Of a stretch of DNA of 34,671 bases, positions 9,381 through 34,271 are shown one piece after another. The translations under genes and the position numbers were made by a program. Source of the DNA: Actinomycetota bacterium. Its GTDB lineage: Bacteria > Actinomycetota > Geothermincolia > Geothermincolales > RBG-13-55-18. Below the pieces are notes generated by a model. That model did not search any database and was not told where the DNA came from. It saw nothing but the letters and a program-made list of their open reading frames with translations. Position 1 is the stretch's first letter, and every line of letters starts with the position of its first letter. The stretch spans positions 1 through 34,671 of the forward strand of contig JAQVFR010000036.1 in assembly GCA_028697145.1 (NCBI GenBank). The letters run 5' to 3'.

Positions 9381-11423
9381 TCAGGGGTCCACCAGCTCCC
9401 ATCGTGGCGGCGTACCGGGCGATTCGTACCAGTCGTACTCGCCGTGCTTCACGCGGATACCGCCGTCGCTCCACGTCGCATCGGGCATGGTGAATATATT
9501 AGACCTGATCATTACGACCTTAGCGTCCCTGTCCGTTATTACCCCGTAGTCGTTCGTCCAGCTGCTGCCGTCGCCATAGACCTCCAGCGCGGTATCGTCA
9601 TTGAGCGGGAAGCCCATCCCCTTTACCTCGAACAGCGCCCCCCGCGCCGTGGCGGCCTCGCTCCTCCTGGCGCCTGCAAGCGTGGTCGTGGTCTCCTCGC
9701 TCACGTCGTCGCTCACCCAGACGCCCACGCTCCAGTAGTACCTCTCTATACGCACCGCCTTCTGCGGGTCGTAGACGGGAAGCGTGATGGCGGGCCCCAG
9801 GGTTATATCGAAATCCCTCGTCAGGAAGGCCCCCTCCGAGTTGTAGACGAACAACTCCCAGCTCTTCTCGTTGTCGCAGTCGATGAGGTTGAGTTGGACC
9901 GGTATCTGCGTTTCGCCTCCGAGCGTGCAGCCGCCGGTGATGTCGTATATGACGCCGTCCTCGTTGCGGATCTCCACCCTGCGGGCATCGGAGAGGTTGG
10001 TGCCGGTGATGGTCGATGGTATGTCGTAGTAGTTCTCGAAGAACCCGCTTCCGGGATCAGGGCTGAAATCCTCTATCGTGGCCGGCCAGTCCCCCTCGAT
10101 CGTATATGTGCCGCTCAGCGTGGATACGTGGCCCACCACCTCCGCCTGGGTGTTTATCACCTCGATGCGGTAGTCCCCGGGGGGTGCTTCGTTGATATCG
10201 AAGGTCGCCAGTATCACGCATCCGCTGTCGATATAGCCGTTGTTCGGAGCGGTTATCGAGGTGATGACGCCCGGGACGGTAACGGGGTTCTCCTCTACGT
10301 CCTGGACCAGCCTGACGCTGGCGCTCTCGAAATTGGGGATGTTGATGAAGCGTCCTCCCGTCACCCTCAGGTGCAGCGCTCCCCACTCCTTGTGCCCCGT
10401 CTTCGACATGGCTACCGGGCTGAAGGGGCCGTTGGGATCGTTCCCGTAGTCCGATATGATCGGCCTCGGGTACTCGCAGATGAAGCCGTTGTAAAGGTAC
10501 GACGACACGATCTCCTGCCTGACCTTTACCGACCAGTACCCGATGGGCGCTTTGCCGCCCCAGGGGCTTCCGGGAGTCGAGTTGTAGAGCTTCACGGTCC
10601 CCTTGATCACGGTATCTGTACTGGTGACCTTGTTCACCGCCACCGTTACATCGTTGTAATCGGGCCTCGCCAGCTTGACCTCGAAATTCGGTGCGCCGGG
10701 GTCAAAACCCCAGCCCTCGATGGTGACGTTCGCGTCTCTTTCCGGCCAGTGCGCCGCCGCGTCGCTGCTGGTCCCCTGGATGGCCTCCGGGCCGTCAACC
10801 GTTATCCTCGATACCCCAAGGTTGTATATGGCCTCGGAAGCGGTGACGATGGCCTCCGCCTTGTGCTCCAGCACCTCGACCTCATCTCTCATCGCGTAGA
10901 TGTTGACCTGGACTACGAGAAGGTTGATGCTCCTGTTGTCCTTGTCCTTGGGGCGGTCGTTCCCCACCTTCATGGGGCCCCAGGTGCTCTTCATCTCGCT
11001 GACCTGCGTCGCGTTGTCCTGGTAGCAGACCCTGACCCCCGCCCTGAAATCCTTGTTTCCCTCTATGCTCCCGTACGCATAAGCGGGGAGGGTGACCTCG
11101 GGAATGGCATCCCAGTCGGGCCCGGAACCGTTGGCGGGGTTGGCATACTGGGGATTTCTTTCACCCCAGAAATAGTCGTCTATGTCCATCTTTCCCATCT
11201 CGTCGTCGAAAGGAACGTAATAGGGCATGGACTTTATTCGTTCCATGATCGACTGCGCCAGTGCGACCGTTTTGTGCGCGCGGGAGGACGACATGATACC
11301 GGCGAAGGAGGTATCGAACATCCTCACGATGGGGATCAACGCGACCACGAGGATCATCCCTGCCACCAGTATCTCGGCCAGGGTGAATCCCCGCTGATCG
11401 CCTATGCCCCTTCGCGACCGCAT
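9381..11423 (-). CDS. Giant PilV-like prepilin with predicted Ig-like (IPT/TIG-type) extracellular domains
   Basis: A 680-residue prepilin, several times the usual 150-200. Leader MRSRRGIGDQRG precedes FTLAEILVAGMILVVALIP, with the peptidase site at 12/13 and glutamate at mature position five. After a pilin-like helix (SSRAHKTVALAQSIMERIKSM) the chain is almost all beta. Segments near residues 205-320 (VTIEGWGFDPGAPNFEVKLA...) and 465-555 (IEDFSPDPGSGFFENYYDIP, then ITGTNLSDARRVEI) resemble IPT/TIG domains by their G-x-N/G-F turns; this is my reading, not a search result. It would place a long beta-domain stalk on the pilus, probably at the tip, and could act as an adhesin. It follows the gspH-like gene. 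No cell-wall anchor motif is visible. Confidence 0.78.
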   Translation of the reverse strand: MRSRRGIGDQRGFTLAEILVAGMILVVALIPIVRMFDTSFAGIMSSSRAHKTVALAQSIMERIKSMPYYVPFDDEMGKMDIDDYFWGERNPQYANPANGSGPDWDAIPEVTLPAYAYGSIEGNKDFRAGVRVCYQDNATQVSEMKSTWGPMKVGNDRPKDKDNRSINLLVVQVNIYAMRDEVEVLEHKAEAIVTASEAIYNLGVSRITVDGPEAIQGTSSDAAAHWPERDANVTIEGWGFDPGAPNFEVKLARPDYNDVTVAVNKVTSTDTVIKGTVKLYNSTPGSPWGGKAPIGYWSVKVRQEIVSSYLYNGFICEYPRPIISDYGNDPNGPFSPVAMSKTGHKEWGALHLRVTGGRFINIPNFESASVRLVQDVEENPVTVPGVITSITAPNNGYIDSGCVILATFDINEAPPGDYRIEVINTQAEVVGHVSTLSGTYTIEGDWPATIEDFSPDPGSGFFENYYDIPSTITGTNLSDARRVEIRNEDGVIYDITGGCTLGGETQIPVQLNLIDCDNEKSWELFVYNSEGAFLTRDFDITLGPAITLPVYDPQKAVRIERYYWSVGVWVSDDVSEETTTTLAGARRSEAATARGALFEVKGMGFPLNDDTALEVYGDGSSWTNDYGVITDRDAKVVMIRSNIFTMPDATWSDGGIRVKHGEYDWYESPGTPPRWELVDP

Positions 11424-25578: not shown

Positions 25579-28500
25579 TTACAGTCTCTTAATGCCGTCG
25601 ATGATACGCATGATGATGCTCTTCGTTACGGCCTTATCCCGCTTTACCTTGGGAACCGGCTTACCCCTATCTAATTCCTCCACTTCCTCTTCTTCTCCTT
25701 TCGGTTTAACCGGTATCTTTATCTTCTTTGTCGGCTGCGGCGTGGATACTCCCGTAAGCTCGGCCAATTCTCTTTCTAAGGAGTAGGCTCCCACGTCGAA
25801 ATCCTGCGTCTCTTCCAGGGCGTCCTCTACCCTGTCCGCCGCCTCGTAAGCGGGCGCGGAGGCAACTGGAGCATCGAACTGCGAGGGCTCGAAAGCTGCT
25901 GGCGGCCGCTGCTCCGGGGCCACCGTCGGCACGGTTGCGGCGGGTTGCTCGGGCACGGCGGGCTCCACGTATTCGGGAGCGGGTGCCTGGGCCGCCTCCG
26001 GCACGGCGAACTCCGCTTCGGGCGCTGCGGGCTCCGGCATGGCTTGCTCCGGGGCCACCGTCGGCACGGTTGCGGCGGGTTGCTCGGGCACGGCGGGCTC
26101 CACGTATTCGGGAGCGGGTGCTTGGGCCGCCTCCGGCACGGCCTCGGGGCTTTCCGCCAGCCTCTCGAGCAATTCGATGGGCTCGGGCGATTCCCGGGCG
26201 GGCTCCGGCACGGCGAACTCCGCTTCGGGCGCTGCCGCCTCCGGCATGGCCTCGGGGCTTTTCGCCAGCCTCTCGAGCAATTCGATGGGCTCGGGCGATT
26301 CCCGGGCGGGCTCCGGCACGGCGAACTCCGCTTCGGGCGCTGCGGGCTCCGGCATGGCCTCGGGGCTTTCCGCCAGCATCTCAATGATATCGAACGTGCT
26401 GCGCGATTCCTCGAGCGCCTCCGGCACCTGGGCATCTATCGTCTCGCCGGCCGGTCCTTCCATGGTCTCCGGCTCCAGCTGCGCGGTTCCGCCATCGGAT
26501 GGAACCTCCGTCTCCGCCCCGAAGACCTTCTCCAGCTCCTCCAGCGATGCCGGCATATCGTCTTGCGCGGGCAACGCCTCCCCTGCGAGCTCTTCCTCCT
26601 CATAAGCTTCAAGGATCTCTTTTTCCAGCCCGGATATCTCATCCGCAAGGTCCTGCGGCAGGGCTTCGTCGGCAAGGATCTCCTCCTCCAGCGCCGCAAT
26701 CTCCTCCTCGAGCTCCGCGATATCCAGGGCGGGAACACCCTGTTCTGCTTCCAGTATCTCCTTTTCGAGATCCTCTATCTCGTCGCTGAAAAGATCCCCT
26801 CTGCGCTCTCCAATAGCATTCTCGGACTTAGGCACCACCTCGCCGATATCGAAGAAGGTCTCCGCAGGTTCTCCCGGCTGCAGCCCCGGCTCCTCGGGCA
26901 ACGGCAATGCGTCCTCCACAAGCAGGGCTTTCTCGGATGACGGCAAATCCTCCAGCATTACGCTTTCCAGGATATCCGCGGCGGATGCATCGGTGTAAAA
27001 GTCCACGCCGACGGCGTAAGCCGGTTCCTCTTTCCTCGGCTCCGTCTCCTCAGCGTGCGATATTCCACCCGCAGCAAGGTATTCCTCCCCCGCTCTTTCG
27101 GGAATATCCTCGAGCATCACGCTCTCCAGGATGGCAGCGGCCGAGGGGTCGTCGGGCCCCCTGCCGTCATCACCGGCTAAACCGGGCTCTTCCTCGAGGG
27201 ACGTACGGGAGACCTGTGCGCCCCCTACACTGCCATCGCTCCCCTCGAGCTGTTCGAATATCTCGTCCAGGCTCGCCCCCATCGCAGGCTCCGGGTATGC
27301 CGACGCCACCGCTCTTCCCTCCGTCTCGGCCTCAACGCCGCCTCCAGGGGGGTCGCCCGGCATTGTCTCTTCGTCGATTCCGGTCCCATCTGCGGTGGCG
27401 CCCGCCACATGCCTTTCTTCAATCTTCGATTCCGTTTCCGTTGCCGCCAGGTGGCTCTTCCACTCCTCGGGTATCTCCTCCGGTTCCCGCTCCGCTCTCT
27501 CCTTTTCGGCCAGGCTCTCCATCTTGCCGTATTTCTTCTCGAGATATGCCCGCTTCGCCGCCCTTGCCTCGACGCTCTCCTTCGTCATCTTCTCGAAGCG
27601 GTAATGAGGGGCGCGCTCCGGAGGGAGCGCCTCCTTTTCTCCCTCGGCCTCGTCCAGGCCCAGACCCTCCGGAAGAAGTGAACTTATCTTCTTTTTGAGC
27701 TCCTCCAGCTCGGCCTCTTTGCTGTCTATTTCCAGGACCTGCTCGGCCTCCATGGACTCCTCGATGGCGGCTTCTTTCATCTCGAGGATGTGCTCCTCCT
27801 CTTTTTTCTTCTCTTCCTCGAGGACTTTCTGCGCACCCAGCGGCAGCTCCGCTTCCGGCAATATTTCCTTTTGCGATATCTCCCGCTCCCCTTCGGCCGC
27901 CGGTGCCGCGACCTCTTGTTCCTCCGCACCGTCTGCCGCTTCCTCCGTTACCTCGACCTCCAGCGCGGCGGTAACTACCTCCTCGACAAGTATGTCTCCC
28001 TCCGAATCATCGCCTATCTCGATCTCTACGGCCTCCGCCTCGCCTGAATCGGCCGCTGCCTCCACCGCCTCCACCGAACTTGCGGAAACCATCGCCACCT
28101 GCTCGATATCTTCCGTAACTTCCAGCGCTTCATCGCTGATTACGGGCTCCTCCTCCACTGCGAGTCCCGTTTCCACCAACCCGGTCACCGGCACCGGCGC
28201 CGCCGCCTCAACCTCTTTCTCCTCTTCGCCACCGGTCTCGGGGGGAGCCGTCTCGATCTCTCCTTGCGCATCCGCCTCCAGGCGTTCGAACACCTCGCCC
28301 AGGGCGTCCGCGACCTCCCATGGTTCCTCCTCGTAGGCGGCCTGGGCGGCCTCTTTCGCGGCAGGCTCCACCGTTTTCGGCTCCGTGATAATCTCTTCCG
28401 CCGGCTCTTCCGCCTCGGATGCGAAGTCGGGGATCTCCACGAAAGCTGGCGCTGCTTCGCCTACCTCCTCCTCGACTTTCTCCAGTTCCTCCGCCAGCCG

Positions 28501-29250
28501 CTCCAGCCTCAGATCCGCTTCCTGCTCCTCCGAGGCCGGGGTGATGTTCTCCAACAGCCCGGAACCGATAAGTCCGTAGAGGATCTTGCAGGTGTGCAGG
28601 GTGCTCATTCCCGTGAGCTCTACGATCTGCCTGACCGTCTTTTCGCCGTCGATATGTGTGAGGACCATCCATTCCTCGGGCGTCAGGCTTATCTGCGCGG
28701 CCTCTCTGCCCTGCATGGAGGTCATCTTGAAGATCACGTTCAGGTTGGGTATCTTCTTCTCGATGCGGTTCCACTCGTCCAGCCGCCGCGATCCCTCCAT
28801 GATCAGCTCCTCGGTGCTGATGGAGAGGCCGATGTCCTCCTCCGGAAAAACGACCCCCGGCTGGAAATCGAAATCGCCGTCCGTCCACCGCAGCATCTCG
28901 AAGACGGCGTCCTGTATCTGTTCTTCTACGAACACCTCCAACTGTTCTTTGGTAATATATCCCATGCGGATGAGGAGCTGCCCCAGCCGCTGGCCCCGGG
29001 CCGTGGTCTTCTGCAGTTCCAGCGCCTCGTCTACCTGTGCCTTCGAGACGATTCCAGCGTTAAGGAGCTTGAGGCCGAGCGATTGCCGTTTCCAGTTGGT
29101 GGTGGCGAAAAATACCTCGCCGTTACGAAAGCAGATATAACCCCTGGCTTGCCCGCGGGTAAGGTTGAGCGTCCCGTTCTTCTTGCCGAAATTCAGCAAC
29201 TGGAACAGGTCGGGAATGCTGAAATCCTTCAGGCTTCCTTTCAGGGCCAT
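25579..29250 (-). CDS. Giant DUF4388 protein with MshEN-like motifs and a long acidic low-complexity region
   Basis: A 1223-residue protein. Residues 1-50 match the DUF4388 start ([20 protein letters not shown]). Two 24-residue MshEN-like motifs follow at 57-80 and 88-111 with a seven-residue spacer, then a helix-rich part ending in a winged-helix-like segment near 190-235 ([20 protein letters not shown]). From about 245 to 1170 it is a Glu/Ala/Pro-rich, probably disordered region. It holds repeated short motifs: [14 protein letters not shown] near 700 and [14 protein letters not shown] near 760, several LEEEI/LEKEIL heptads near 800-890, and Pro/Glu/Ala repeats at 960-1115. The C-terminus is basic ([11 protein letters not shown], then a Lys/Arg-rich end). 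It looks like a scaffold linking roadblock/GTPase signalling to other partners; no enzyme domain is seen. Confidence 0.85.
25911..26356. repeat. Coding tandem and interspersed repeats in the DUF4388 gene
   Basis: Two families are visible. About 95 bases starting at 25911 recur at 26046 (offset 135 bases, 45 codons) with at most a few differences. About 106 bases starting at 26143 recur at 26251 (offset 108 bases, 36 codons). Both offsets keep the frame. The encoded repeats are Pro/Glu/Ala-rich. The near-identity at DNA level points to recent duplication or ongoing slippage. Confidence 0.9.
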
Positions 29251-29423: not shown

Positions 29424-29822
29424 TCAATCATATTCGATGCGGAATTCCACCTTAATGATCTCGGCGATCTTTTTTGCCGCGCCCTTGACGTCGTATAAGA
29501 CCAGTCCGAGCTTGCTCCCCTTGCGGACCAGCGCGGTCAGTACCGCGTCCTCCCCGGCGGCCATAAGAAAAACGTATCCGGAATTGCCCTCCACGAACAC
29601 CTGCGCCAACTCCCCTCTCCCCAACTCCTCTGATGTCCTCTCCCCCAGGCTGAGGAGGGCGGCAGACATGGCGCCAAGCCTGTCCTCCTCGAGGGTATTG
29701 GGCAGGACCGATGCCATTACCAGGCCGTCCATGCTGACGACAGCCGCGGCATCGACCTCGGCAGATCTCGAGACCAACTCGTTAAGGGCATTCCTCAGCC
29801 TGTCCTCCCTAGATTCCGCCAA
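29424..29822 (-). CDS. Roadblock/LC7 domain protein (first of three along the sequence)
   Basis: A 132-residue protein of the roadblock/LC7 fold, which includes MglB and other GTPase regulators. The core reads AAAVVSMDGLVMASVLP, a helix (LGAMSAALLSLGERTSEEL), strands AQVFVEGNSGYVFLMAA and AVLTALVRKGSKLGLVLYDV, and a final helix. It begins at a TTG (29822) with AGGAGG eight bases upstream. It follows another roadblock gene by 48 bases, and 173 bases without a recognised feature separate it from the DUF4388 gene. It is the longest of the three and ends in a short acidic strand. Confidence 0.85.
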   Translation of the reverse strand: MAESREDRLRNALNELVSRSAEVDAAAVVSMDGLVMASVLPNTLEEDRLGAMSAALLSLGERTSEELGRGELAQVFVEGNSGYVFLMAAGEDAVLTALVRKGSKLGLVLYDVKGAAKKIAEIIKVEFRIEYD

Positions 29823-29870
29823 GAAACCGACCTCCTATGTATTGTCCAGAAAAAACGTGTTCTCTCGCCC

Positions 29871-30245
29871 TCACTCGAAGAGCCTTGCCAATTCCTCCGC
29901 GGTGCGCTTCCCTTCCATAAAAACCACGCCCATCTTCGCTTCGGCTCTAACCAGCAGTGACAGCAGCGCATCGGGCCCGCAGTGAACGAGCAGGAGATAT
30001 CCCATGTCCCCTTTAATATACACCTGCTCGAGTTCCCCCCTCTTGAGGTCGCGGGCCGCCCTCTCGCCCATACCGAGTACGGAGGCAGACAGCGCTCCTA
30101 TCATCTCCTCATCCGCTTCGTCGGAGATATCCGAGGCCAGCGCCATGGCATCCGAGCTGATCAGAACCGCCGCCTCGATCTCCGGCAGGTTGGAGCGCAA
30201 GTCCATGAGGATGGAGTTCATTCTCTCGATTCTGTCCGAAGTCAA
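29871..30245 (-). CDS. Roadblock/LC7 domain protein (middle)
   Basis: A 124-residue roadblock/LC7 protein with IEAAVLISSDAMALASDI (the usual Asp-Gly turn replaced by Asp-Ala), the helix IGALSASVLGMGERAARDL, strands LEQVYIKGDMGYLLLVHC and ALLSLLVRAEAKMGVVFM, and the closing helix RTAEELARLFE. It starts at a TTG (30245) with AGGAGG five bases upstream. It resembles the neighbour at 29424-29822 more than the third, which suggests a local duplication. Homo- or heterodimers with its neighbours are likely for this fold. Confidence 0.85.
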   Translation of the reverse strand: MTSDRIERMNSILMDLRSNLPEIEAAVLISSDAMALASDISDEADEEMIGALSASVLGMGERAARDLKRGELEQVYIKGDMGYLLLVHCGPDALLSLLVRAEAKMGVVFMEGKRTAEELARLFE

Positions 30246-30310
30246 TCTTACCTCCTGAAAGAACGACAGGTCACCGCCTCCCTATAGGGGGAGACGCCAT
30301 TTCCGCCCCA

Positions 30311-30664
30311 TTACAGGGACGTCTCGATCGCGGGAAGATACTTGCGGATGTCATATCTCGCCTTTCCCAGGTTCGCCCCCGAGGGCAGGATAGACACGAG
30401 AATCGCATCCGTGCCAACGGCGCTCATGAGGATGGCGCCCTTCTCAAACTCGAACATGGCCTGGGCCATCGGCCCCTGGGCCAGCTCCAGCCCTATCACC
30501 TCGGCGGCGCCCAGGGAACTGGGCGCTATCGCGCCGACGGCCTCCAGCTGGCTTGCGTCTTCACCCGCCGTCTCGATTATGAAGCCGTCTCTCCCTACCA
30601 CCAGCGCTGCACGCACGGTTCCGGTGGCAACCAATTCCTCCAGGACTTTTCTCAGATCGGGCAA
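30311..30664 (-). CDS. Roadblock/LC7 domain protein (promoter-proximal)
   Basis: A 117-residue roadblock/LC7 protein: RAALVVGRDGFIIETAG (with the Asp-Gly turn), the central helix around ASQLEAVGAIAPSSLGAAE, AMFEFEKGAILMSAVG and AILVSILPSGANLGKARYDI. It starts at a TTG (30664) with AGGAGG nine bases upstream and is the first gene after the 30810-30838 promoter. It is the most divergent of the three, with a shorter C-terminus, and may have a distinct role such as dimer partner or GTPase-facing subunit. Confidence 0.85.
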   Translation of the reverse strand: MPDLRKVLEELVATGTVRAALVVGRDGFIIETAGEDASQLEAVGAIAPSSLGAAEVIGLELAQGPMAQAMFEFEKGAILMSAVGTDAILVSILPSGANLGKARYDIRKYLPAIETSL

Positions 30665-30954: not shown

Positions 30955-31245
30955 TCAGAACATGGCGGCGCATTTTAGCTGCGCCCGGGCGTCCGCGGGC
31001 CCGTAACGCTCTGTTCCATCCCCCGCCTCCACCGCGATCGCATCCGCGCGGCATGCCACCTCGCAGCTCAGACACCTGATGCAGCTCTCCTCGCATGCTA
31101 CACGGGGATAGCCGTCGTCCCCACGAACGAACACCGGGAACTCCAGGCCGTCTACCTGCGGACAGATGTCAACGCATTCGAAACAACCCACGCATCTGTC
31201 GCGGTCTATCCTTATCAGGGGCTCAACCTTCTCCACGTACTCCAA
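30955..31245 (-). CDS. 2x[4Fe-4S] ferredoxin-type protein
   Basis: A 96-residue electron carrier with two cluster motifs: CVGCFECVDICP near residues 18-29 and CIRCLSCEVACRADAI near 55-70. Both C-x2-C-x2-C-x3-C sets are complete. I placed the start at a TTG (31245) because GGGAGGAG is correctly spaced; a GTG at 31254 is too close to the same site. It lies 34 bases after the hydrogenase large subunit, so it probably carries electrons to or from that complex. Confidence 0.85.
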   Translation of the reverse strand: MEYVEKVEPLIRIDRDRCVGCFECVDICPQVDGLEFPVFVRGDDGYPRVACEESCIRCLSCEVACRADAIAVEAGDGTERYGPADARAQLKCAAMF

Positions 31246-31279
31246 CCCTTTCACTCCTCCCGCTCAGAACAGCGACATA

Positions 31280-32599
31280 TCAATGCACGCCACAGGGGAT
31301 ACAGGGGGCGAAAGCACGTATGGCCGTCTCCAGGAGGACCAGGGCTCTTTCGCCCGTATCCGCGCTACCCAGGACGGTTCGCGCGCTTTCCAGCACCGCC
31401 CTTTCCAGGGACTTGAGGTTGAACTGCAGCGGCGTGGTGATCGATAACCGCTTCACCAGGCCGTCCTCGTCCAGGACCAGACCGTAGAGCAGCGTCCCTT
31501 CCGGACCCTCAACCGCTCCCTCCCCGCTACCTCCGGAAGGGTTCAGCGTCCGGCGCATCATCTCTCCGCCGGGCAGAGCGAGGAGTTCTACCATCCTCTC
31601 CCAGGCATGGATCATCTCCAGGATCCTGGCCGCGTGTCCTATCATGTTGCGGTGCAGTGGGAACCCCCAGTGGGCCTTGACCTCCTCCAGTTCCTCGTCG
31701 GCCAGAGCCGTACCGTAGCCTCCGTTAACGTTCAGACGCGCCAGCGGGCCGACCCTCACCTCGCCCACTCCGGACAGCTCCACACTCCTGATATGCGAAT
31801 GGGGCGAGTTGTCCTCCCGCAAACGCTCGGCGGCCTCTTCGAGGCCGAAGGCCTCCTTCGCCTCGCCTCCCGCATCGACGACCGCCAGGGCCGTTCCCGT
31901 GATCGCCATCCCGCCTTCCCCCCGGAGCGACAGGGATGGCGCCTCATCCGTGCCCAGTGCGTTCACGGCCTCCTCGTTCCTGCGCAGCAAGAGCTTGACG
32001 AGACGCCCAGTCTCGATAAGAAACGGCCTGGCTTCGTTGAGCCGGTCGATCAGCGCCCTTCTCGTATCCGCGGATATGTCCCTGACCGCTCCGCCCGGCA
32101 GGAAATTCACGGGGTGCACGGCCCTGCCCCCGGCTTCTTTCAACACGCTGGTCCCAAGGGACTTGAGCTCCATGAGCCTCTTGACCGTCTCCTCATCGAC
32201 GCGATGGATGCTGATAATGTTACGCAGACCCGGATCGGATGAAGGGAAGAGAAGATCGGGAAGGCTGTGCACGGTAAGGGATACCGCGTGCCGCTCGAAC
32301 AGCTGACCCCAAAGGGCCAGTTCGCGGAGGCGAAGGGCTTCCGGCGGCACCTCCACCCCCAGCGCATTCTCCACCGCGGTGGCGGCGGCGAGTTGGTGAA
32401 AGAGAGAATCGCAGCCGCAGATGCGGGATACGATGGGGCAGAGCCCGTCGATGTGCGATCCTCTTGCTATCTGATCGAAGCCTCGGTACCCGAAAGCCTG
32501 GAAACGCGCGTCCCGCGGGTTTTCGGCCTCGTCGAGGACAATCTTCACGCTGGCGTTCCCCATGATCCGGGTCAGAGGATCTATCAGGATCTCCGGCAT
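31280..32599 (-). CDS. Divergent NiFe hydrogenase large subunit-like protein (MvhA type)
   Basis: A 439-residue protein whose overall layout fits group 3 (F420-non-reducing, Mvh-like) large subunits: IDPLTRIMGNASVKI, RGFDQIARG, SRICGCDSLFHQLAAATAVENALGV, HSLPDLLFP, GGYGTAL and a C-terminal FAPCIPCGVH. Key places differ from the usual motifs: TRIEGH is TRIMGN, RGFE is RGFD (39-42), the first cysteine pair is C-G-C (61, 63) instead of C-x-x-C, and DPCxxC is APCIPC (433, 436). The protein ends exactly at the His where maturation peptidases normally cut, so no cleavable tail exists. It may be an active but unusual hydrogenase or a related redox or sensory protein. The ATG at 32599 has AAGGTG upstream. 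Confidence 0.85.
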   Translation of the reverse strand: MPEILIDPLTRIMGNASVKIVLDEAENPRDARFQAFGYRGFDQIARGSHIDGLCPIVSRICGCDSLFHQLAAATAVENALGVEVPPEALRLRELALWGQLFERHAVSLTVHSLPDLLFPSSDPGLRNIISIHRVDEETVKRLMELKSLGTSVLKEAGGRAVHPVNFLPGGAVRDISADTRRALIDRLNEARPFLIETGRLVKLLLRRNEEAVNALGTDEAPSLSLRGEGGMAITGTALAVVDAGGEAKEAFGLEEAAERLREDNSPHSHIRSVELSGVGEVRVGPLARLNVNGGYGTALADEELEEVKAHWGFPLHRNMIGHAARILEMIHAWERMVELLALPGGEMMRRTLNPSGGSGEGAVEGPEGTLLYGLVLDEDGLVKRLSITTPLQFNLKSLERAVLESARTVLGSADTGERALVLLETAIRAFAPCIPCGVH

Positions 32600-32641: not shown

Positions 32642-33544
32642 CTATTCCCTCTCTCCCAGACGATAGAGGAAGGGCGCGCTGCCCCCGGGCCTGCGACGCC
32701 TCAACAACGCCTCCGCCAGGCAGTACCTGAAAAAGGAATGTGCGGGGTCCTTTATCGCGTCCTGCACCTCGTGTGGTTTTTTGCCCGTCGCCCTCGTCAG
32801 GCGCCGCAAGGTCTCCGCCCGGGGATCAAGCGCCGGGTGCTTCAGCACCGCGTCGCTGGGGCCTCTGCATCCGTCGCATGGTATGCCCGATTCGCTCACG
32901 CATACCGCCCCGCATCCATCCCTGGTGAGGGGCCCCATGCACAGGAATCCCTGCTCCAGCAGGCACTTCTTCTCCGCAGCCTCGGCATCGGTGGTTCTGT
33001 GCGGGCCCGCCTGGGGGAGGGACACTCCGGAAACCGCGCACTCCGAGCAAACACTCGATCCCTCCCGTGATGGCAACGTGCCCGACAACGAGAATTCCAG
33101 AAAAGACCTCATCAGCTCCACCGGTGGCGGACATCCCGGCAGGTAGGCGTCTACCCTCACGTACGAATCAACGGGGAGCAGGCGGCGCACTCCCTGCGGC
33201 TCTCCTTCGAAGGACGCATCGGCCCCGAAACGGCGCCGCATCATCCTTTCCTCCGAGAACATATCCGCCAGGCCCGGCACCCCCCCATAACATGCGCAGG
33301 TCCCCAGGGCGACCAGGAATTCGGATCTCTCGCGCGCCTGCTTGGCCTTACGGTAATCGTCTCCGTTGCGGATGACGCCCTCGACGAGTACCATGTCGAC
33401 CTCCGGTATGCCCTTCCGGTCTACGACAAAGGGGGCGAAGGGCACGCTGTTCTCGCTGATCAGCGAGAAGAGATAATCCTCCATGCTGAGGAAAACCATC
33501 TGGCACCCGAGGCACGAGCCGAGGGACACCATTGCCAGCCGCAT
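32642..33544 (-). CDS. NiFe hydrogenase small subunit (MvhG-like)
   Basis: Electron-transfer subunit of 300 residues. The proximal cluster cysteines are C11 and C14 (GSCLGCQ), C83 (GTCACYGG) and C138 (LPGCPPP). A C-terminal ferredoxin-like part adds eight cysteines: C166, C169, C194, C202, C211, C215, C223 and C226, with the MvhG-like CLLEQGFLCMGPLTRDGCGA and IPCDGCRGP. That is enough for two more [4Fe-4S] clusters. No Tat signal is present, so it is cytoplasmic. The ATG at 33544 has GGAG six bases upstream and begins three bases after the preceding gene. Unlike the large subunit, its cluster ligands look complete. Confidence 0.9.
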   Translation of the reverse strand: MRLAMVSLGSCLGCQMVFLSMEDYLFSLISENSVPFAPFVVDRKGIPEVDMVLVEGVIRNGDDYRKAKQARERSEFLVALGTCACYGGVPGLADMFSEERMMRRRFGADASFEGEPQGVRRLLPVDSYVRVDAYLPGCPPPVELMRSFLEFSLSGTLPSREGSSVCSECAVSGVSLPQAGPHRTTDAEAAEKKCLLEQGFLCMGPLTRDGCGAVCVSESGIPCDGCRGPSDAVLKHPALDPRAETLRRLTRATGKKPHEVQDAIKDPAHSFFRYCLAEALLRRRRPGGSAPFLYRLGERE

Positions 33545-33547
33545 CTT

Positions 33548-34036
33548 CTACTCCAGGTTCGTTACAAGCATCACAAGGCAGGCTCCTGGACCCGTGTGCT
33601 CGGTATGGAGGTCTACCCTGCGTTCGAATATCTTCTCCAGCATGCCTGCCGCATAACCATGTACCGTCTGGCAGGCCACGCCGCCCATCCTGACCCCCGC
33701 CGCTAGACAGGCGTCACGCACCGGACATTCCTCGAAAAGGAGCCTGATGAACATCTCCTCGACCTCGTATACCCAGAAATCGTCGTCTTCCTTGTTTTTC
33801 CATAGAGTGACCTTCCACACATCCTCACTGCTCGGGAAGACCCACTTCAAGGCACGCTCGATATCGTCCGTGCTGTCATGGGCGGCTGCCTCCTTTAGCC
33901 CGAGGTCCTTCCCCGCGAAATACATCAGCTGGGGCGCGGACTTGCCGGTTACCTCCAGGCCCGCCTGATTCATGATACCCAGGGTCTCGGATATGGCGCG
34001 TATACGCTCCTCCAAGGCCCGTTCCTCATCCGTCAT
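33548..34036 (-). CDS. V4R-like cysteine-containing protein, first gene of the hydrogenase group
   Basis: A 162-residue protein of uncertain function. The C-terminal part (CPVRDACLAAGVRMGGVACQ, then HGYAAGMLEKIFERRVDLH and TGPGACLVMLV) resembles the V4R (4-vinyl reductase-like) small-molecule-binding domain, which also has a Cys...G-Y/F-x-x-G-x-x-E...C layout; this is pattern recognition only. Cysteines at 104, 110, 122 and 153 could bind metal. The N-terminus (ALEERIRAISETLGIMNQAG) is helical. I used the ATG at 34036 (GGAAGGG nine bases upstream); the frame is open to 34135. It lies three bases before the small subunit, so it is co-expressed and may act as sensor, chaperone or partner. Confidence 0.65.
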   Translation of the reverse strand: MTDEERALEERIRAISETLGIMNQAGLEVTGKSAPQLMYFAGKDLGLKEAAAHDSTDDIERALKWVFPSSEDVWKVTLWKNKEDDDFWVYEVEEMFIRLLFEECPVRDACLAAGVRMGGVACQTVHGYAAGMLEKIFERRVDLHTEHTGPGACLVMLVTNLE

Positions 34037-34271
34037 GCGTCGATACCCTTCCCGACCGATTTCGAGTCCGCAGCGCGCGAAAAGGCCTTTCAACCAGATC
34101 GTGCGGCCATGCGGTGGGCATTGTTTTGTGGGCATCCTCGTCTTCGGCCGCTCTCCGCAGCCCTCCTACAAGTGATACTTCGGCCTTTTCTCATTAAACA
34201 TGAACAGCAACCCATAGGCCATAGCCGTAGCCAGGGTCTTCCTTGATTTCATGTATTTCAGGGGGATTTCA

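Follow-up and report, generated by a model that had tools for sequence, protein, structure and literature searches.

A probably soluble, group 3c-related hydrogenase-like cassette with a changed active site in Geothermincolia

Background

To our knowledge, the departures from H2 chemistry in the hydrogenase superfamily (complex I, MBS and Ehr) all come from its membrane-bound group 4 side. The MBS/Mbx sulfane reductase of Pyrococcus retains a hydrogenase-type core from which NiFe cysteines and the relay Glu have gone, and its substrate is a different one; in both MBS and complex I, a hydrophobic cavity remains next to the proximal cluster where the NiFe site was lost (PMC7684303). MBS keeps two of the four NiFe cysteines and carries its proximal cluster on three Cys. 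The Ehr complexes, which are related to group 4 and likewise reside in the membrane, possess no Ni/Fe-coordinating residues (PMC6349859).

The closest described relatives of the proteins analyzed here are group 3c hydrogenases, MvhA/MvhG and VhuA/VhuG (PDB 5odc). Hydrogenases of groups 1, 3b, 3c and 3d, as well as an mvhD/hdrABC cluster, were reported by Merino et al. from the actinobacterial clades concerned (PMC7325909); the part of that paper considered here contains no description of the present variant. This variant was not found described in the searched literature, mostly papers available without subscription, and neither was an association of V4R with a hydrogenase-like pair.

Results

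Four-gene cassette and its neighbourhood

The window, i.e. the whole analyzed stretch of 34,671 nucleotides, is a contig of a draft genome of an Actinomycetota bacterium (JAQVFR010000036.1). It harbors the following genes, given in the order of transcription:

33548..34135, minus strand: V4R/Bet3-fold protein, 195 aa as open ORF (AlphaFold model and Foldseek)
32642..33544, minus strand: small subunit, 300 aa, MvhG/VhuG-like (PF01058 and VhuG model)
31280..32599, minus strand: hydrogenase-derived large subunit, 439 aa, intact ORF with ATG start (Pfam/NCBIfam)
30955..31254, minus strand: 2[4Fe-4S] ferredoxin, 99 aa (Fer4 matches)
29424..30664, minus strand: three Roadblock/LC7 genes at 30311-30664, 29871-30245 and 29424-29822, downstream neighbours outside the cassette (Pfam Robl_LC7)

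The order of the first four genes is fixed in 20/20 loci, with the ferredoxin gene present in all 19 cassettes where the contig extends far enough. Wherever contigs cover them, mltG and the Roadblock genes enclose the cassette, and the conserved neighbourhood also holds alaS, ruvX and aroE. No membrane or antiporter subunit genes occur in this conserved neighbourhood. An upstream neighbour of 880 aa, considered as a candidate HdrA, is AlaS, and the cassette's upstream neighbours are housekeeping genes. Consensus promoters were not found, and terminator-like sites were seen. Further downstream in the window, a DUF4388-type protein of 1223 aa (25579-29250, minus strand) contains in-frame repeats within about 25850-26500, and its length varies strongly among relatives.

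Four genomes (G021, G026, G028 and G030) have a cassette-free site in which mltG is followed directly by Roadblock genes, and in G015 mltG and DUF4388 share a small contig and no cassette separates them; no cassette was detected in two others (G002 and G025), which are uninformative because their contigs end beside mltG. Of 296 genomes of the phylum, 20 yielded the V4R-fold protein, and all 20 carry the large subunit. Because the cassette-free sites keep Roadblock and the V4R-fold protein occurs only in carriers, we conclude that the four genes travel as a unit and that the Roadblock module is independent of the cassette. A functional link to Roadblock/GTPase signalling drawn from adjacency alone is weakened by the same cassette-free loci.

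The dN/dS values of the cassette genes (0.07-0.24) lie within the range of alaS, ruvX, mltG and aroE. Judged by these rates, the cassette is under purifying selection and is not decaying, despite C-terminal erosion in the large subunits of three carriers.

Large subunit and its active site

The large subunit matches PF00374 with 50 bits, and among NCBIfam models it comes nearest to VhuA (206.6 bits, where the curated cut-off is 800) and ShyA. Canonical relatives in the phylum also stay below 800, which makes this cut-off a weak criterion. The AlphaFold model (pLDDT 91.4) has the group 3c large-subunit fold: the closest solved chain is MvhA 5odc_F, with TM 0.93 and E 3e-35 in Foldseek and 28% sequence identity. 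The codons of interest, taken from the alignment and the site table, are listed below.

32563-32561, minus strand: Met13 (relay Glu lost)
32419-32417, minus strand: Cys61
32413-32411, minus strand: Cys63 (variable position)
32410-32408, minus strand: Asp64, GAT
31501-31499, minus strand: Glu367 (Arg in canonical enzymes)
31429-31427, minus strand: Leu391 (cyanide-pocket Thr/Ser lost)
31309-31307, minus strand: Ala431 (Asp of DPC lost)
31303-31301, minus strand: Cys433
31294-31292, minus strand: Cys436
31285-31283, minus strand: His439

The original prediction, made from the window only, pointed to altered active-site motifs, and these are real: RICGCDSLFH, RGFD, TRIMGN and a terminal APCIPCGVH-stop are all found in the ORF. 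Their reading needs some revision. By homology to the Desulfovibrio enzymes, Cys61 and Cys433 presumably match the pair of terminal nickel ligands, and one of the two Cys that bridge Ni and Fe falls at position 64. In the Candidatus Solincola family the L1 motif is RxCGxDS, where position 63 can be C, G, P, V or L, Asp64 is invariant in all 14 sequences checked and His68 stays in register. L1 is thus CxxD and the fourth cysteine is missing, with CxxC kept in L2. The C-G-C-D noticed earlier is present, but it does not represent a displaced CxxC: position 63 is free, and what is conserved is the replacement of Cys by Asp at position 64. The C-G-C is a chance feature of the window's species and one relative; as a four-thiol motif, C-x-C is ruled out by the variability of position 63. 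Similarly, RGFD does stand in place of RGFE, but the swap is conservative, D or E at this position being the rule within the orthologue clade. We take this residue to be a Mg-binding carboxylate by homology, and not a proton relay; the relay Glu is the E of TRIEGH, here Met13.

Relay Glu, DPC Asp and cyanide-pocket Thr/Ser are missing in all 22 orthologues examined, and the Arg over the active site is replaced in the Solincola family. Erosion goes further in some members of the cassette clade, since the large subunit of G023 (L051) lacks the last Cys and His and those of G004 (L045) and G008 (L015) lack the final His.

The maturation tail, reported as absent from the window's protein, is indeed missing there and in 22/22 orthologues. 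As certain true hydrogenases are tail-less too, this absence alone is a weak sign of a non-hydrogenase. Among archaeal relatives, L073, L074, L077, L080, L082, L085 and L088 combine canonical CxxC and DPC with only 4-6 residues past the final His, and are therefore nearly tail-less.

Orthologues and order of losses

A search of 197 genomes retrieved large-subunit orthologues with 39-73% identity within the same GTDB family and about 28-46% in other families of the class. When canonical group 3 relatives of the phylum and of archaea were included in the tree, all 22 examined orthologues grouped in a single clade (support 99/96) of Geothermincolia lineages that include Candidatus Solincola and Candidatus Geothermincola. 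The loss of the DPC Asp and the Thr391 to Leu replacement each require a single change and characterize the clade as a whole, and Asp64 is likewise a single change on the tree. The site was therefore altered first, and the exchange of Cys for Asp followed in the ancestor of the Solincola family, whose sister families keep CxxC. The tail-less state spans the entire clade, CxxC members included. Glu13, missing from every orthologue, is also lacking in certain archaeal relatives. Outside the class, a non-exhaustive scan by two short peptide patterns revealed no CxxD; relatives there have CxxC and DPC where readable.

Partner proteins

The small subunit and the ferredoxin had been described as intact, and wider comparison agrees: all 12 cluster cysteines of the small subunit, enough for three [4Fe-4S] clusters as in group 3c, are invariant in 20/20 sequences. 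Those of the proximal cluster (C11, C14, C83 and C138) retain the normal C-x-x-C spacing.

The first protein of the cassette probably starts near 34036, where homology begins. Its model (pLDDT 74) matches PoxR, MopR and Bet3 with Foldseek probability 1.0 and TM about 0.45, and Pfam V4R is hit weakly in 8/16 members (best E 0.0094, below the gathering score). We tentatively assign it to the V4R/Bet3 fold from this moderate-confidence model and these weak matches. Phenols or palmitate are ligands of V4R-related domains, which often bind Zn as well (PMC10933270). The cassette protein shares the fold of V4R, Bet3 (TRAPPC3) and PoxR-MopR domains and differs in being stand-alone and partnered with a hydrogenase-like pair. 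Its invariant residues C137, C155, H159, H180 and C186 might coordinate Zn in the manner of PoxR and Thor-TRAPPC3, an analogy that is suggestive only.

Maturation genes

Among the 31 genomes of the class, HypD tracks the canonical [NiFe] large subunit exactly (24/24 versus 0/7; Fisher p 4e-7) and shows no association with the cassette. The absences of HypE and HypF coincide with those of HypD; in a few fragmented HypD-positive genomes, one of the two fell below the cut-off. Five of the seven genomes without HypD keep the large-subunit orthologue. These carriers without HypD, HypE and HypF are the window's genome G000 (97.6% complete), G016 (99%), G018 (99%), G019 (95%) and G017 (82%). HypC is missing from the same five and present in 5/5 control genomes tested. 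The hydrogenase-derived protein is the only NiFe-type large subunit found in the window's genome.

On this gene content, the large subunit is evidently independent of HypCDEF, the set on which Fe(CN)2CO depends. Two observations lead us to infer that it contains no Fe(CN)2CO: five carriers have no HypC, D, E or F, and the cyanide-pocket Thr is lost throughout the clade. The absences were scored on draft genomes, and gaps explain them less well, since the whole Hyp set would need to have dropped out jointly from five genomes belonging to three families.

HypA is uninformative as evidence for nickel, being present in 29/31 genomes (the only match in G018 is a fragment with stops) and located in G000 beside unrelated metabolic genes. 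As HypA is kept in most genomes and the adjacent gene in G000 reads as HypB, the large subunit may nevertheless have a nickel site. In the vicinity of hypA/hypB in the window's genome (L105, G000:C24, about 10000-11000) we noticed a repeated unit, translated AFYRNVCVPGQARLRRDWRWTLLRRRRRNRF, broken by a run of N.

MvhD, found in 30/31 genomes, does not discriminate between the groups either. In G016:C7, G020:C28, G024:C28, G013:C310 and G027:C244, frames of about 800 aa with FlpD/MvhD domains run through one in-frame TGA, which suggests selenocysteine.

Discussion

Compared with group 3c enzymes, the cassette shares the large-subunit fold, the best profile matches and the ligands of the small-subunit clusters, and differs in lacking the L1 CxxC, the DPC Asp, the relay Glu, the cyanide-pocket Thr and the tail, in its apparent freedom from HypCDEF, and in having a V4R-fold partner instead of adjacent MvhD/Hdr genes. 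From Ehr it differs in its relation to group 3c and in the lack of adjacent membrane genes; shared with Ehr is the departure from canonical Ni/Fe-coordinating residues. Compared with MBS, its genes are of soluble types and three Cys plus Asp are kept. Because its proximal cluster keeps four Cys, the mechanism of MBS cannot simply be transferred to it.

We propose, with a probability of roughly 0.55, that the cassette encodes a soluble, group 3c-derived and ferredoxin-linked redox module which has lost Fe(CN)2CO, and with it ordinary H2 chemistry, and which processes or senses a small molecule of probably hydrophobic nature. Electrons would move between the ferredoxin and the small subunit with its three [4Fe-4S] clusters, which would in turn donate electrons to the remodelled large-subunit pocket (Cys61, Cys433, Cys436 and Asp64) or accept them from it. 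The pocket perhaps holds a single metal ion, or else forms an empty cavity beside the proximal cluster. A small molecule that the V4R-fold partner binds or delivers would there be reduced, oxidised or sensed; its hydrophobic nature is a guess suggested by the fold of this partner alone. The part of the proposal that denies the large subunit an Fe(CN)2CO hydrogenase function is very probably right. Granted that, an enzyme would be slightly favoured, a sensor would be a lesser though substantial prospect, and other functions would make up the rest. A more specific version, a soluble ferredoxin-linked metalloenzyme with one metal ion on three Cys and Asp, no need of the Fe(CN)2CO pathway and a hydrophobic substrate supplied by its dedicated V4R/Bet3-fold partner, is rather doubtful in all its details.

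Of the three options originally offered, a sensor and a repurposed protein come out favoured over an unusual hydrogenase. The sensor is a less probable but credible rival: the hydrogenase-like pair and the V4R-fold protein would sense the redox state of ferredoxin or a small molecule and signal to Roadblock, DUF4388 and a Ras-like GTPase, possibly with control over the type IV pili whose genes lie downstream. H2-sensing hydrogenases are known, V4R/PoxR domains are sensors, and the cassette adjoins Roadblock, DUF4388 and GTPase genes across the class. This adjacency is weak evidence, however, as alaS, ruvX, mltG and aroE belong to the same neighbourhood, the Roadblock/DUF4388 module stays in cassette-free genomes, and 290 bases separate the ferredoxin gene from the first Roadblock gene in the window. 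A working hydrogenase with an altered, Hyp-independent site, e.g. Ni or Fe on three Cys and Asp, could account for the conserved fold, small-subunit clusters and Cys61, Cys433 and Cys436, and for HypA being kept in most carriers. We regard it as very improbable given five carriers without HypC, D, E and F, relay Glu, DPC Asp and cyanide-pocket Thr lost in 22/22 orthologues, the Arg replaced in the Solincola family, and two lineages (G023; G004 with G008) that lack C-terminal site residues as well.

Those same eroded C-termini would fit a degenerate hydrogenase that serves as a structural scaffold or simply decays. The dN/dS values resembling those of housekeeping neighbours, the invariance of the 12 cluster Cys and the fixed order of four genes make degeneration very improbable. 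Finally, the window comes from a draft genome, so the CxxC codons could in principle contain a sequencing or assembly error; with the same Asp shared by 14 genome sequences, several of which belong to isolates with names of their own, and two changes needed to obtain a Cys codon, we practically discount it. Named once more, our preferred reading is the ferredoxin-linked redox module without Fe(CN)2CO.

Conclusions

Taken together, comparison of genomes shows a single Geothermincolia clade with a fixed cassette, intact Fe-S ligands, a changed active site and independence from HypC, D, E and F. Labelling such genomes as group 3c H2-oxidisers is unsafe. The clade keeps intermediate states (four Cys without Hyp, then Cys to Asp), so the order of losses is testable. 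If our proposal is true, the cassette represents a soluble, group 3c-derived counterpart of the membrane-bound systems, and would mean that a hydrogenase was independently converted to a different reaction.
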